The position numbers and the translations under genes were made by a program. This document shows positions 64 through 4,165 of a DNA stretch of 22,120 nt, piece by piece; the stretch's first letter is position 1; each line of letters opens with the position of its first letter. Origin of the DNA: a virus; the IMG/VR virus record IMGVR_UViG_3300035698_013283, positions 1 to 22,120 of that record; one strand, written 5' to 3'. Below the pieces are notes generated by a model. That model was not told the DNA's origin, did not search any database, and saw only the letters and a list, made by a program, of their open reading frames with translations.

Positions 64-258
64 CTACTCCGCTTCGTATGCGTCAAACCAGGGGCCGCGT
101 TGTTTAGTGCGGCGTTTGCCGGCGGCATTGGTGCAAGTACTGGAGCTGGTTTCAGGGTCTCGACAATGCGCTTGAGCTTCGTTTAGTGTTAACCCGCGCT
201 TGATTTTGCGGCTTTTATCGTGATAGCGAAACAGTCTGACAATTTTGTAAGTTTCCAT
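64..258 (-). CDS. Small orphan-family protein with PETSSSTCT motif
   Basis: A 64-residue basic soluble protein. I recognise its pattern as a small uncharacterised family common in phages and prophages: an N-terminal strand, then KRGLTLNEAQAHCRDPETSSSTCT at about residues 20-43, then a basic stretch, then GPWFDAYEAE at the C-terminus. The HC..PETSS and WFD.Y elements are the family hallmarks as I remember them; no biochemical role is known to me. The ATG at 258 has an AAAGGA ribosome binding site about seven bases upstream on the minus strand. It sits in a leftward operon of tiny genes, the usual place for early or accessory phage genes. The family call is fairly sure; function is unknown. Confidence 0.85.
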   Translation of the reverse strand: METYKIVRLFRYHDKSRKIKRGLTLNEAQAHCRDPETSSSTCTNAAGKRRTKQRGPWFDAYEAE

Positions 259-269
259 TTTTAATCCTT

Positions 270-479
270 TTATGCAGCTATTAATTCGAGTAATTGAGGC
301 GCCGGATTAAAATCTATTGGCGCAGTCGCGCCGGTTTCCAGATTTTGCCAGCAGTAAGTGTTCCGACTGCCACCAGACCAATATGCGCCAGTCAGTGTTA
401 CGGATTCGGTGATCTCGTATTTAAACGATTTCCCGCCATAACCTGCCTTTAATCGCGAGGGTATATTTTGTATATACAT
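270..479 (-). CDS. Small hypothetical phage protein (69 aa)
   Basis: A 69-residue protein I cannot assign. It begins MYIQNIPSRLKAGYGG and is rich in aromatic residues and glycine, with a Y-W-S-G-G-S-R-N-T-Y-C-W segment in the middle and a hydrophobic end (LLELIAA). There is no membrane span or signal peptide. I chose the ATG at 479; an in-frame TTG nine bases upstream would add three residues and overlap the preceding gene, but the ATG sits directly after that gene's TAA (TAAAATG), which suggests translational coupling. It is followed eleven bases later by the 64-aa PETSSST gene. The length and packing fit a real operon member; function is unknown. Confidence 0.65.
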   Translation of the reverse strand: MYIQNIPSRLKAGYGGKSFKYEITESVTLTGAYWSGGSRNTYCWQNLETGATAPIDFNPAPQLLELIAA

Positions 480-480
480 T

Positions 481-675
481 TTAAGCAATCCAATCGTGTA
501 ATAAATCGTAACAATGCGCGCGTTGCGCTTCGGTTTGCGTCGCGGGGTTTACTTGCTCGCATTCAATCGTTTGCGCAGTCATAAACCCGACGCGCCCCAT
601 TAAGAAACCGCACCAGAAAATCAGCACAGCGGCTGCAACTGCAACTGCAGCGGCATCAAAATCTTTATTAGTCAT
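481..675 (-). CDS. Small single-span membrane protein (64 aa)
   Basis: A 64-residue protein with one clear hydrophobic helix at about residues 8-32 (Ala/Val-rich, then LIFWCGFLMG), flanked by an acidic N-terminal tail (MTNKDFD) and a polar C-terminal half with two cysteines. By the positive-inside rule the orientation is ambiguous. Its ATG overlaps the stop of the upstream 73-aa gene as ATGA, so the two are probably translated together. Size and topology would allow a holin-like or superinfection-type membrane protein, but there is no endolysin next to it, so I do not name it as one. Real gene likely; role unknown. Confidence 0.65.
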   Translation of the reverse strand: MTNKDFDAAAVAVAAAVLIFWCGFLMGRVGFMTAQTIECEQVNPATQTEAQRAHCYDLLHDWIA

Positions 676-893
676 CCGACCAACTCCAGCAGGTAGTCCG
701 CATCTGTAGGGATACGTTGACCATGCGCTACAAGCTCAAAGCTGGCGTCTATAGCCTGGAATGCTCGTATTGCGGCATGGGTGAGGGTCTTGGTTCCGGC
801 GGCCTGACAGATGGCCATGGAAAGGTCACACGCCGGGTATAGCACCGTCATTCCGTATTGGTTGGTAGGCTTTACTGTTAATTGGTTGCTCAT
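672..893 (-). CDS. Small conserved phage protein with YP...KTLT pattern
   Basis: A 73-residue soluble protein. The pattern N-Q-Y-G then L-Y-P-A-C, followed by A-G-T-K-T-L-T at about residues 32-38 and a helix, resembles a short uncharacterised phage family in which a Tyr-Pro element precedes a KTLT turn; I recall the pattern but no function for it. It is the first full-size gene of the leftward operon. No good Shine-Dalgarno sequence precedes its ATG; instead a 16-codon reading frame with its own ribosome binding site ends four bases upstream, which suggests coupled translation. Its 3' end overlaps the next gene by ATGA. Confidence 0.7.
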   Translation of the reverse strand: MSNQLTVKPTNQYGMTVLYPACDLSMAICQAAGTKTLTHAAIRAFQAIDASFELVAHGQRIPTDADYLLELVG

Positions 894-989: not shown

Positions 990-1017
990 ATAATAAACTA
1001 TTGAAGGCAGGAGTCAA
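990..1017 (-). promoter_or_regulatory. Sigma70-type promoter of the leftward operon
   Basis: On the minus strand TTGACT (1017-1012) and TATTAT (995-990) are separated by 16 bases; each hexamer matches the sigma70 consensus at five of six positions. Transcription would begin near 983 and give a leader of about 35 bases before the 16-codon frame. No other candidate this good was seen in the gap. The heptamer repeats begin about 85 bases upstream of it. Confidence 0.6.
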
Positions 1018-1230
1018 TACTTTTAATGGCTCTTTTAATGGCTTATTTCCAACTATTTTTCAGACTGTGAACCAAGGCCGTCCGTGCCAGGCGGGATGCA
1101 GAGTGTCACCACTATACTGGTGACTATTTTTTTATAGTGGTGACGCTGTGGCCGTTGCTACCATTGGTCTGTCATAACTGTCACCAGTGTCACCACTTTA
1201 AAGTAATTAACTATATGAGAGTGAACAATA

Positions 1231-1454
1231 CCGGAACAGCAAATGTGCCGAAAGCGTAACGGCAATTGTATATATGTTGAAGTGTTTAGTTTGAGTGGTG
1301 ACACTAGTGAAAAAACGCTGAAACCGTTGCGGGGTATGGTTCTCCGCGTCACCACTATACTGGTGACACTATGCGAGACGGTGCCCCAATCGGAACCGTC
1401 TCAGGTGTTTTTTTCAGTTTTGCCCATTTTGGCTGTTTTGGCCGGAACAGCAAA
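1231..1454. repeat. 13-bp direct repeat pair CCGGAACAGCAAA
   Basis: CCGGAACAGCAAA occurs at 1231-1243 and again at 1442-1454 in the same orientation, 211 bases apart start to start. The two copies flank the second 20-bp palindrome and the hairpin. They may mark an internal duplication of the control region or be second-factor binding sites. Confidence 0.5.
1375..1414 (+). terminator. Hairpin with T7 tract (terminator or attenuator)
   Basis: GAGACGGT (1375-1382) and ACCGTCTC (1395-1402) form a perfect 8-bp stem with a 12-base loop, followed after five bases by seven T residues (1408-1414). This resembles a factor-independent terminator for rightward transcription, lying about 200 bases before the terminase genes. 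The large loop and five-base gap to the T tract weaken the call. If functional it would end a leader transcript or gate late transcription. Confidence 0.45.
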
Positions 1455-1614
1455 AAACACGCATGCGGAACATCACCGCCGAATTTTACGCTGTGCCGCA
1501 ACAAAGGTTAACAGGGTTAAAACGTAATCAGAATGGAGTGGTGACAGTGGTGCAATTGTTGCCCGCACATGCTCGCGACTGGATCTCACGCCGGCATGCG
1601 GGAATTGTTCGGGG

Positions 1615-2364
1615 ATGATAATCCCTGTTTTGAATCAGCCGATTTTTTCAAAAAAATATTTTTTAGCGCCCCCAGGTTCTGGAACATTGCACGCATTGGC
1701 ACAATTGACGCATGATTGGGCAATGAAAATTAAACCAGTGGCGGCGCAGCCGATTGATGATATGGCAGACCTCCGCGAACGTTTCCACATTGCTATACGG
1801 TCACTTTCGCCCAATCGTCAGGCATACGTTAACGCCTATCTATTAATCGGCACGGTATCCGGCGCCTCGCGCGAGGTTTATTCGAGCGCGCGCGGAGGCG
1901 AGCAGGCTAATAATGATCCAGTGGTGCAAGAGGCAATATTGATTGGGCAGCAATACAGACTCTCAATCATGCACGCCGATGCACAGCGCGTCATGGTGGA
2001 GCTGATAGATATGATCGATGCCGATCCGGCCGGCATGCTTGGCGCGGACGGTCTGCCTTTGCCGCTTGATCAGTGGCCTAAAGCACTACGCAAGCGGCTA
2101 AAAGCCTTCCGGCCAGTGATACGCGAGGGTAAAACGTTCGCAGAATCGCCAAAATTCACGGAATCGCGCGCATTGGTGGAGCTATTAGGCAAGCATGTGG
2201 GCGTCAATGCCTGGAAACAGGAAGACGACGGTGGCCGGGCTGATGAGTTCGCCGCCCGTTTGCAGGCCGCAGAGAATGCACTATCGGCACGCCTTGTAGA
2301 ACCGGACGCAACACACCATCCTGCAGTTGACTACTTGCCCATCGATGATGATGCCAGTGATTAA
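1615..2364 (+). CDS. terS: Terminase small subunit
   Basis: A DNA-packaging recognition subunit that binds the packaging site on concatemeric phage DNA and presents it to the large subunit. The 249-aa frame has the shape of the Terminase_2 family: an N-terminal helical segment with F..AI..LSPNRQAYVNAYLL at about residues 57-77 (the DNA-binding helices), a helical middle with VELIDMIDADP at about 128-138, and the typical GADGLPLPLDQWPKALRKRLKAF block at 143-165, followed by an acidic tail. Start choice is uncertain: the ATG at 1615 has only G-rich sequence before it, while the ATG at 1723 (213 aa) begins close to where the family similarity starts and is a credible alternative. It stands 275 bases ahead of the large subunit, an unusually wide gap for this pair. 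Confidence 0.85.
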   Translation: MIIPVLNQPIFSKKYFLAPPGSGTLHALAQLTHDWAMKIKPVAAQPIDDMADLRERFHIAIRSLSPNRQAYVNAYLLIGTVSGASREVYSSARGGEQANNDPVVQEAILIGQQYRLSIMHADAQRVMVELIDMIDADPAGMLGADGLPLPLDQWPKALRKRLKAFRPVIREGKTFAESPKFTESRALVELLGKHVGVNAWKQEDDGGRADEFAARLQAAENALSARLVEPDATHHPAVDYLPIDDDASD

Positions 2365-2638: not shown

Positions 2639-4165
2639 ATGTCATTACAAAATGAGCAGCGCAAAAAAAATGTTGGTTTATTGGCTGACAAGCTGACGCA
2701 GTTTCGTTATTCGCCGTTGGCGCATGCGCGGTATTGTTATCCGTGGGGTGAGAAGGGGACGGTGTTGGAGGGTCATACGGGGCCGAGGGATTGGCAGCGT
2801 GAGTTGTTCAATGACATTGAGAAGCATTTGATGAATCCGGCGACCAGGCATACGCCGTTGAAGATTGCGATTGCGTCGGGTCATGGTATTGGCAAGTCGG
2901 CGGCGATGGGCATGTTGATACGTTGGGCGTTGGATACGAAGCGTGATACGCGAATTGTTGTTACGGCGAACACTGATTCTCAGTTGAAGTCGAAGACGGT
3001 GCCGGAGGTAACGAAGTGGGCGAACATGGCGTTGACTGCTGATTTTTTCAATACAGCGACGACGGCTATTTATTCTAAAGACCCTAAGCATGTGAAGTCG
3101 TGGCGTTGTGATTTTGTGCCGTGGTCGAAGGACAACAGTGAGGCGTTTGCCGGATTGCACAATGAGGGCCGGCGCATCATTTTGATGTATGACGAAGGCT
3201 CTGCGATTGACGATGTTATTTGGGAGGTATCGGAGGGTGCGTTGACGGATGCGAACACGGAGATCATTTGGTTGGCGTTTGGTAATCCGACGCGGAACGT
3301 GGGTATGTTTCGTGAGTGTTTCCGGTTGAATAAGGCGTTTTGGAAGACGCGCCAGATTGATTCACGGACGGTAGAGGGTACGAACAAGGAATTGTTTGAT
3401 GGTTGGGAGAAGCAGTACGGTGTTGACAGTGATTTTTTCAAGGTTCGGGTGTTGGGTCAGTTCCCGTCGATGTCTGACCGGCAGTTGTTTGACACGGGTG
3501 ATGTTGACCGGGCGTATGGTCGTGATTTGAATCGTGAGCAGTATGAGTTTGCGCCGATCATTTTGAGTTGTGATCCGGCGTGGGAGGGTGATGATGAGTT
3601 GGTGATCAGTAAGCGCCAGGGTTTGCATTTTGAGGTATTGGAGACGATGGCGAAGAACACCAATGATATGGAGGTTGGCAATAAGATTGCGTTGTACGAG
3701 GACCGATTTGAGGCTGACGCTGTGTTCATTGATGGTGGTTATGGCACGGGCATTATTTCGTCTGGCCGGACGATGGGTCGTGAGTGGACTATTGTTTGGT
3801 TTAATGGGAAGTCGGCTGATGAGTCTTGTATGAATAAGCGCGCGGAGATGCACGTTTTGGCGCATGCGTGGTTGAAGGAGGGCGGTTGCATACCGATTGA
3901 TAAGGATTTGCGTCACGAGATGATTTCTTGTCAGGTAGTCAATACGGATGACGGGAAAATAAGGCTGCTGCCCAAGAAGGATATGAAAGTATTAATTAAG
4001 CGAAGTCCGGGTCGGTTGGATTCGTTGGCGTTGACGTTTGCATTCCCTGTTGCCAAGAGGATTAATGCTGGGGTACAGTCGCTGGCATCACAGCGGGCAA
4101 GGGAATACAACCCGCATGATCGGTTGAAGTCGAGCCGTAAAGTTGAAGTCCAGAACAGGTTATAA
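2639..4165 (+). CDS. terL: Terminase large subunit (ATPase-nuclease)
   Basis: The packaging motor: it hydrolyses ATP to translocate DNA through the portal and cuts the concatemer. At 508 aa it is normal in length. The ATPase motifs are visible: Walker A GHGIGKS at 81-87, Walker B ILMYDE at 181-186 with the catalytic Glu following the Asp, and the coupling motif AFGNPT at 213-218. The RNase H-fold nuclease has acidic residues at D312 (LSCDPAW), D365 (FIDGGYG) and D461 (GRLDSLAL). The ATG at 2639 has only a weak GGTG upstream. Codon use is odd: 31 of 39 leucines are TTG, and third positions strongly favour G and T, unlike the capsid and later genes. It is followed two bases later by the small Pro-rich gene. 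Confidence 0.97.
   Translation: MSLQNEQRKKNVGLLADKLTQFRYSPLAHARYCYPWGEKGTVLEGHTGPRDWQRELFNDIEKHLMNPATRHTPLKIAIASGHGIGKSAAMGMLIRWALDTKRDTRIVVTANTDSQLKSKTVPEVTKWANMALTADFFNTATTAIYSKDPKHVKSWRCDFVPWSKDNSEAFAGLHNEGRRIILMYDEGSAIDDVIWEVSEGALTDANTEIIWLAFGNPTRNVGMFRECFRLNKAFWKTRQIDSRTVEGTNKELFDGWEKQYGVDSDFFKVRVLGQFPSMSDRQLFDTGDVDRAYGRDLNREQYEFAPIILSCDPAWEGDDELVISKRQGLHFEVLETMAKNTNDMEVGNKIALYEDRFEADAVFIDGGYGTGIISSGRTMGREWTIVWFNGKSADESCMNKRAEMHVLAHAWLKEGGCIPIDKDLRHEMISCQVVNTDDGKIRLLPKKDMKVLIKRSPGRLDSLALTFAFPVAKRINAGVQSLASQRAREYNPHDRLKSSRKVEVQNRL

Follow-up and report, generated by a model that had tools for sequence, protein, structure and literature searches.

What is the role of a dense cluster of short repeats that sits directly upstream of the terminase genes of an uncultured phage? 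We addressed this question in a 22,120-base fragment of viral DNA (the window; heptamer counts for this phage cover this fragment only), in which nine copies of GTCACCA or its complement TGGTGAC fall between positions 1105 and 1545 on both strands. We put a probability of roughly 85% on the array being a phage replication origin whose iteron, GTCACCA(C/G)T, is recognized by a winged-helix domain at the C terminus of a primase-helicase. The array, its layout and its position are seen in the window itself, the covariation of iteron and helicase is a statistical result from relatives, and it is a prediction from comparison that in this phage the array is bound, unwound and active as an origin. 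An earlier sequence-only reading had listed replication iterons among its options, and that option is now strongly supported by the arrays of relatives, the layout, the position and the covariation with the helicase C terminus.

A repeat array between opposed gene blocks

The array stands far above background. The heptamer occurs 13 times in the window, nine times in the array and four times as scattered singles (9440, 11894, 19774 and 21372), against a mean of 2.5 copies in dinucleotide shuffles of the whole window. Shuffles of the array region alone held a mean of 0.135 copies and a maximum of 3 (2000 shuffles), and the densest 450 bp for any heptamer held 3, 4 or 5 copies in 400 dinucleotide shuffles compared with the 9 observed. 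The shuffled-background comparison that the sequence-only reading had proposed thus places the nine copies far above chance within the window, and its counts and coordinates were right: the 20-bp near-palindrome GTCACCACTATACTGGTGAC is present in two exact copies (1105-1124 and 1348-1367) and GTCACCACTATA in three (1105 and 1348 on the plus strand, 1133-1144 on the minus strand). When extended, all nine units read either GTCACCACT (six) or GTCACCAGT (three). Searches of viral contigs for the exact 20-mer GTCACCACTATACTGGTGAC returned no match, the window contains no DnaA box of the form TTWTNCACA, and an Rfam search gave a single match, below threshold.

The surroundings fit an iteron origin, with a repeat cluster far above chance between gene blocks and an AT-rich stretch beside the repeats, in modest contrast to its flanks (Table 1). 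As the sequence-only reading had described, the blocks are oppositely transcribed, leftward ORFs on one side and rightward terminase genes on the other, and no gene matched to a Pfam or PHROGs family covers the array region. None of the four leftward ORFs had a match in Pfam, in PHROGs or among the ORFs of all fetched loci; the contig ends to their left, before the expected position of a primase-helicase gene. Rightward, the order is terS, terL, portal (Head-tail_con) and then other structural genes, among them those for a tail protein and an internal virion protein. The large terminase subunit TerL is about 52% identical to those of epsilon15 and phiV10, which makes this phage a relative of the epsilon15-like podoviruses. 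The pattern scan yielded no relatives of the window TerS. Between the right inverted pair and terS, the plus strand carries an 8-bp GC-rich hairpin followed by seven T (1375-1415; GAGACGGT...ACCGTCTC AGGTGTTTTTTT; -16.4 kcal/mol) that resembles an intrinsic terminator, with no evident rightward gene upstream.

Table 1. Features of the array and its surroundings (positions in the window)
Feature	Position	Strand	Remarks
Four small leftward ORFs	64-893	-	between array and contig end
Leftward promoter-like hexamers	990-1017	-	
Heptamer copies (nine)	1105+, 1118-, 1138-, 1180+, 1189+, 1296-, 1348+, 1361-, 1539-		
Left inverted iteron pair GTCACCACT-AT-ACTGGTGAC	1105-1124		units 1105-1113 (+) and 1116-1124 (-)
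Single iteron GTCACCACT	1136-1144	-	
Tandem pair GTCACCAGT GTCACCACT	1180-1197	+	9-bp spacing; points right to the central gap
Central gap	1198-1293		96 bp; candidate unwinding region; 66% AT vs 51% around it
Iteron GTCACCACT	1294-1302	-	on the far side of the gap, facing the tandem pair; degenerate unit TCACTAGTG 9 bp off
Right inverted pair	1348-1367		exact second copy of the 20-bp near-palindrome
Outlying iteron GTCACCACT	1537-1545	-	degenerate partner GCACCACT 9 bp off
Terminase small subunit ORF	1615-2364	+	PHROG 51, E 2.7e-7; start codon uncertain
Terminase large subunit	2639-4165	+	about 52% identical to epsilon15 gp2

Comparable arrays of other words in relatives

Phages found through TerL often have an equally dense array in the stretch upstream of terS and terL, built on a different word. 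Comparison with related phages, a check that the sequence-only reading had suggested, thus places comparable arrays at the same position in epsilon15-like relatives. Their words include AACTGCC (L008-L011), GTACGCA (L007), ATTGTCA (L017, L020, L021, L024), ACTTACA (L022), CTGGGAC (L040), AGTGGGA (L043), GGTAGAA (L196) and AAGTAAC (L157). Wherever a locus includes sufficient flanking DNA, a primase-helicase gene adjoins the array or lies 1.5-3.5 kb away. The linked genes encode Prim-Pol/PriCT_2/AAA_25 proteins (L007, L008), RepB_primase/DUF5906 proteins (L022, L024), VapE (L040, L043, L196) or a Toprim protein (L157). The order in L022 and L024 (helicase, small leftward genes, array, terS, terL) matches the visible part of the window. 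A cognate primase-helicase is linked to the array in many relatives, and the window contig stops before the place where one is expected.

The same word recurs in other viruses, often beside helicase genes

Pattern scans recovered 23 other viral loci with mixed-orientation GTCACCA arrays. Successive units in the same direction are most commonly spaced by 9 bp (51 of 97 across the 23 loci), and the unit consensus, T-GTCACCA-(C>G)-(T>C), also holds if the count is limited to positions that the search pattern leaves free. Many of these loci share the window layout, with 9-bp tandem pairs facing each other across an AT-richer gap and inverted pairs flanking them; in most of the 23, AT content is higher in the central gap than around it. 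Four loci with GTCACCA in a single orientation and spacings mostly in multiples of 9 (L342, L383, L385, L378) were left out, and their repeats are probably coding repeats rather than origins.

These arrays are associated with VapE-type helicases. VapE-helicase ORFs were found in 13 of the 23 GTCACCA loci compared with 6 of 111 other pattern matches (Fisher p = 5e-8), mostly ending 0-300 bp from the array; in the 10 loci where no VapE ORF was found, some are cut by the contig edge, some have other helicases and some are unexplained. Most of the VapE-type helicases next to GTCACCA arrays share a C-terminal pattern, R-Y/Q-Q-x-R ... G..R.W.Y. In L205 the array starts directly after a gene for a DUF927 helicase that carries a Cch HTH_56 domain and is similar to PDB entries 8tch ("pathogenicity island protein") and 5dgk ("active helicase"). 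In L380 a GTCACCA array is followed by a TerL assigned, like that of the window, to PHROG 5902; this contig, too, starts at the array, which comes just after an apparent gene end. Among the TerL relatives, none combined a GTCACCA array with a whole visible initiator.

Searching PDB sequences with an alignment of VapE C termini produced no convincing match, and a fold search with the C-terminal models gave no significant match, so we claim no membership at the fold level; for the VapE C-terminal model, SaPI PriRep1 (7pds) made up four of the best six matches, at non-significant E values of 0.19-0.51. In six loci (L302, L329, L332, L359, L389, L401) the array adjoins a small gene that in several contigs has a ILALDLGTTTGWA-like motif and perhaps encodes a RuvC-like resolvase.

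Iteron words follow a few residues of the helicase C terminus

Array words track the end of the helicase. Eighty loci with an L024-type helicase gave 55 non-redundant helicase-array pairs; L281, L234, L271 and L240 were dropped from the correlation because the automatic caller saw no clear iteron array in them, their tandem repeats lying closer to the helicase gene or their contig being cut short. Across the 55 phages, which are related and whose shared ancestry is corrected only partly by permutations and a core-identity control, array similarity correlated with similarity of a seven-residue helicase C-terminal segment (residues 728-734) at r = 0.82, and with core identity removed the partial r was 0.82, a value reached in 0 of 2000 permutations. 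The partial correlation of array with TerS was 0.08. The segment was first spotted by eye, and an unguided scan was run to remove that bias: a seven-residue window slid along the 769-residue helicase peaked at 728-734 (0.82), the best value before residue 680 being 0.24. The leading single columns were 728 (r 0.87), 733 (0.79), 734 (0.61) and 730 (0.51).

Because shared ancestry is only partly corrected, near-identical pairs weigh most. L235 and L252 have aligned TerS proteins that are 100% identical and helicase cores that are 98.6% identical, with only 29% identity in the segment, and their iterons differ throughout (TGGACAA vs ATTGTCA). The helicases of L007 and L008 are 74% identical over roughly residues 1-600 and 29% identical in the last 85, and again the iterons differ. 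Within the 55-phage set, 71 pairs combine TerS identity above 90% with unlike arrays, and zero pairs combine like arrays with TerS identity below 45%. Individual segments go with individual words: KSREFDT and close variants with TTGTCCACA, ASADFKS with ATTGTCA, ASRDYTT with ACTTACA, MSRDYPS with ATGACTA, KSSEYQS with ATGACCC, MARDYPA with GTAGTCA and YSREYAT with GTAGGCA.

In the AlphaFold2 model the helicase C terminus is a winged helix whose two strands are joined by a loop that holds residues 728-734 (local pLDDT 70-89). On this medium-confidence model, specificity in L024-type helicases appears to lie in the wing rather than in the invariant helix that precedes it. The window's own helicase gene, whose C terminus would be the one to match to GTCACCA, is absent from the fragment.

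Two further observations concern these loci. In L235, L244, L245 and loci of the KSREFDT type, the iteron TGTGGACAA/TGTGGATAA is the same, or almost the same, as the DnaA box of bacteria, TTATCCACA, and host DnaA might also bind these phage origins. Dense short tandem repeats, apart from the iteron array, lie near the helicase stop codon in L234, L229, L242, L281, L271 and L273; examples just downstream of the primase-helicase gene are ACCAGAC x19, CAGGCGG x16 and AGCTCTA x11.

Other roles for the array

Three other functions can be proposed for an array in this position. The heptamers could be operators at which a phage repressor or activator governs a divergent control region, and the sequence-only reading had named sites for a dimeric regulator. 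A dimer would account well for the inverted pairs, transcription units diverge on the two sides of the region, with a leftward promoter-like site at 1017-990, and the annotation of epsilon15 includes dispersed, palindromic sites for a repressor, one of them just upstream of terS. Those annotated sites (e.g. ATTACCATTTTGGTAAT), however, are mostly single and dispersed and have a different word. The units of the window array come as tandem 9-bp repeats and single copies as well as in dimer-like pairs. A distance of 88 bp separates the promoter-like site from the nearest unit, no unit overlaps the hexamers at 990-1017, and the array runs away from the promoter. Equally dense arrays in relatives, whose word tracks the helicase C terminus, also speak against the dimeric-regulator proposal, and we regard operators as improbable; a double role, with the initiator regulating itself at its own origin, is possible.

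The remaining two readings are less probable still. The location directly upstream of terS, where pac sites are often found, would suit a pac site read by TerS in the manner of the hexamer boxes of P1 pac. Arrays nevertheless do not follow TerS: their partial correlation is the 0.08 given above, TerS proteins that are 98-100% identical accompany entirely different arrays (L235/L252, L241/L246, L214/L216), and the putative DNA-binding stretch of TerS, AGYSKKTAYRMGSENLHKPHIAAAIAAALEKR, is identical in L007 and L008 while their arrays differ. A pac site is thus very unlikely. Hardly credible is the suggestion, also made from the sequence alone, that a single-subunit RNA polymerase of phage type would use GTCACCACTATA as its promoter core. 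This sequence does hold a T7-promoter-like CACTATA, but the element is simply iteron GTCACCACT plus ATA and is found at only three of nine units, and in other phages no fixed ATA follows the iteron. The units also point both ways, and no single-subunit RNA polymerase was found in the 22-kb fragment or among the annotations of the six complete relatives listed.

A proposed origin and its possible rewriting

We propose that the array works as a helicase-loading origin. The winged-helix C terminus of a primase-helicase of the D5/VapE/DUF927 type would bind the iteron GTCACCA(C/G)T, and helicase subunits would assemble at the iterons, tandem and inverted, that flank the gap at 1198-1293. The helicase would then open this AT-richer gap and load as two rings, after which a fused or neighboring primase would start synthesis. 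The predicted initiator gene probably lies just beyond the left contig end, and, judging from the other GTCACCA loci, its product would be VapE- or Cch-like.

The window array would belong to an already known kind of origin; more interesting is that, in the comparison set, phages that are otherwise nearly identical have iterons rewritten in concert with a few helicase residues. We lean, with some reserve, towards a broader reading, that aquatic phages switch origin specificity by repeatedly altering residues 728, 730, 733 and 734 of the wing loop and rewriting every iteron to match, while neighboring genes barely change. This would amount to a readable natural code that keeps co-infecting relatives orthogonal in replication, with GTCACCACT another such word, shared by VapE, Cch and the unseen initiator. 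Our literature search found no description of concerted iteron-helicase rewriting in these phages, which is not proof of absence.

For an uncultured epsilon15-like phage, these results single out a definite stretch as the predicted origin and say of the missing initiator something that can be falsified. The comparison set, in which near-identical phages have different origins and iterons follow four helicase residues, makes both the DNA reading of D5-type initiators and the reasons for specificity switching directly testable. Candidate causes of switching are superinfection, satellites and origin-directed nucleases like Odn. Natural pairs of origin and initiator that are orthogonal to one another could find use as replicons too.

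Relation to known origins

Helicase-read iteron origins are known from mobile islands and satellites. SaPI origins have an AT-rich stretch between two sets of iterons, and their specificity varies from island to island. SaPI Rep is a D5-like initiator helicase whose C-terminal domain reads several short iterons (PMC7581432, citing Ubeda 2007), and in both SaPI Rep and SCCmec Cch2 it is this domain that contacts the iterons, which lie downstream of the helicase gene (PMC7581432). The SaPI origin lies directly downstream of the helicase gene (PMC7581432), whereas the predicted window origin adjoins terminase genes, and in L022, L024 and apparently the window, small leftward genes separate helicase from origin. 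The present array also differs in belonging to a tailed phage and in its iteron word. At the putative SCCmec Cch/Cch2 origin, the iteron core AAGTG in TACCACTTAAT (PMC7581432) resembles CACCACTTTA at 1191-1200 of the window, and L205 pairs a GTCACCACT array with a Cch HTH_56-domain helicase. That origin has three iterons compared with nine in the window, where no initiator gene is seen. P4 alpha is a primase-helicase with a C-terminal winged-helix origin-binding domain and short iterons, TGTTCACC; the word of its ori/crr differs from that of the window. On the best-supported reading, the window origin would work like those of SaPI Rep, SCCmec Cch2 and P4 alpha and is a putative member of their kind, the contig ending before the expected gene.

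Modular swapping has a precedent in the PLE satellites of Vibrio cholerae, in which cognate RepA/ori initiator-origin modules are exchanged between relatives (PMC8263062), probably in part as an escape from an origin-directed nuclease (PMC8263062). PLEs share with the phages studied here a modular cognate specificity swapped among relatives, and differ in having a RepA_N initiator that is not a helicase, longer iterons and N-terminal DNA binding.

A second origin style appears within the same TerL group. phiV10, L103 and L181 have an O/DnaT-like initiator instead, with repeats inside the initiator gene that are presumably replication iterons. These resemble lambda O-type iterons and differ from the window array in lying within the coding sequence of an initiator that has no helicase domain. 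A heptamer is present in 6-7 copies inside the O/DnaT-like gene of phiV10 (L038, from 33688 onward) and of L103, L121, L139, L170 and L181.
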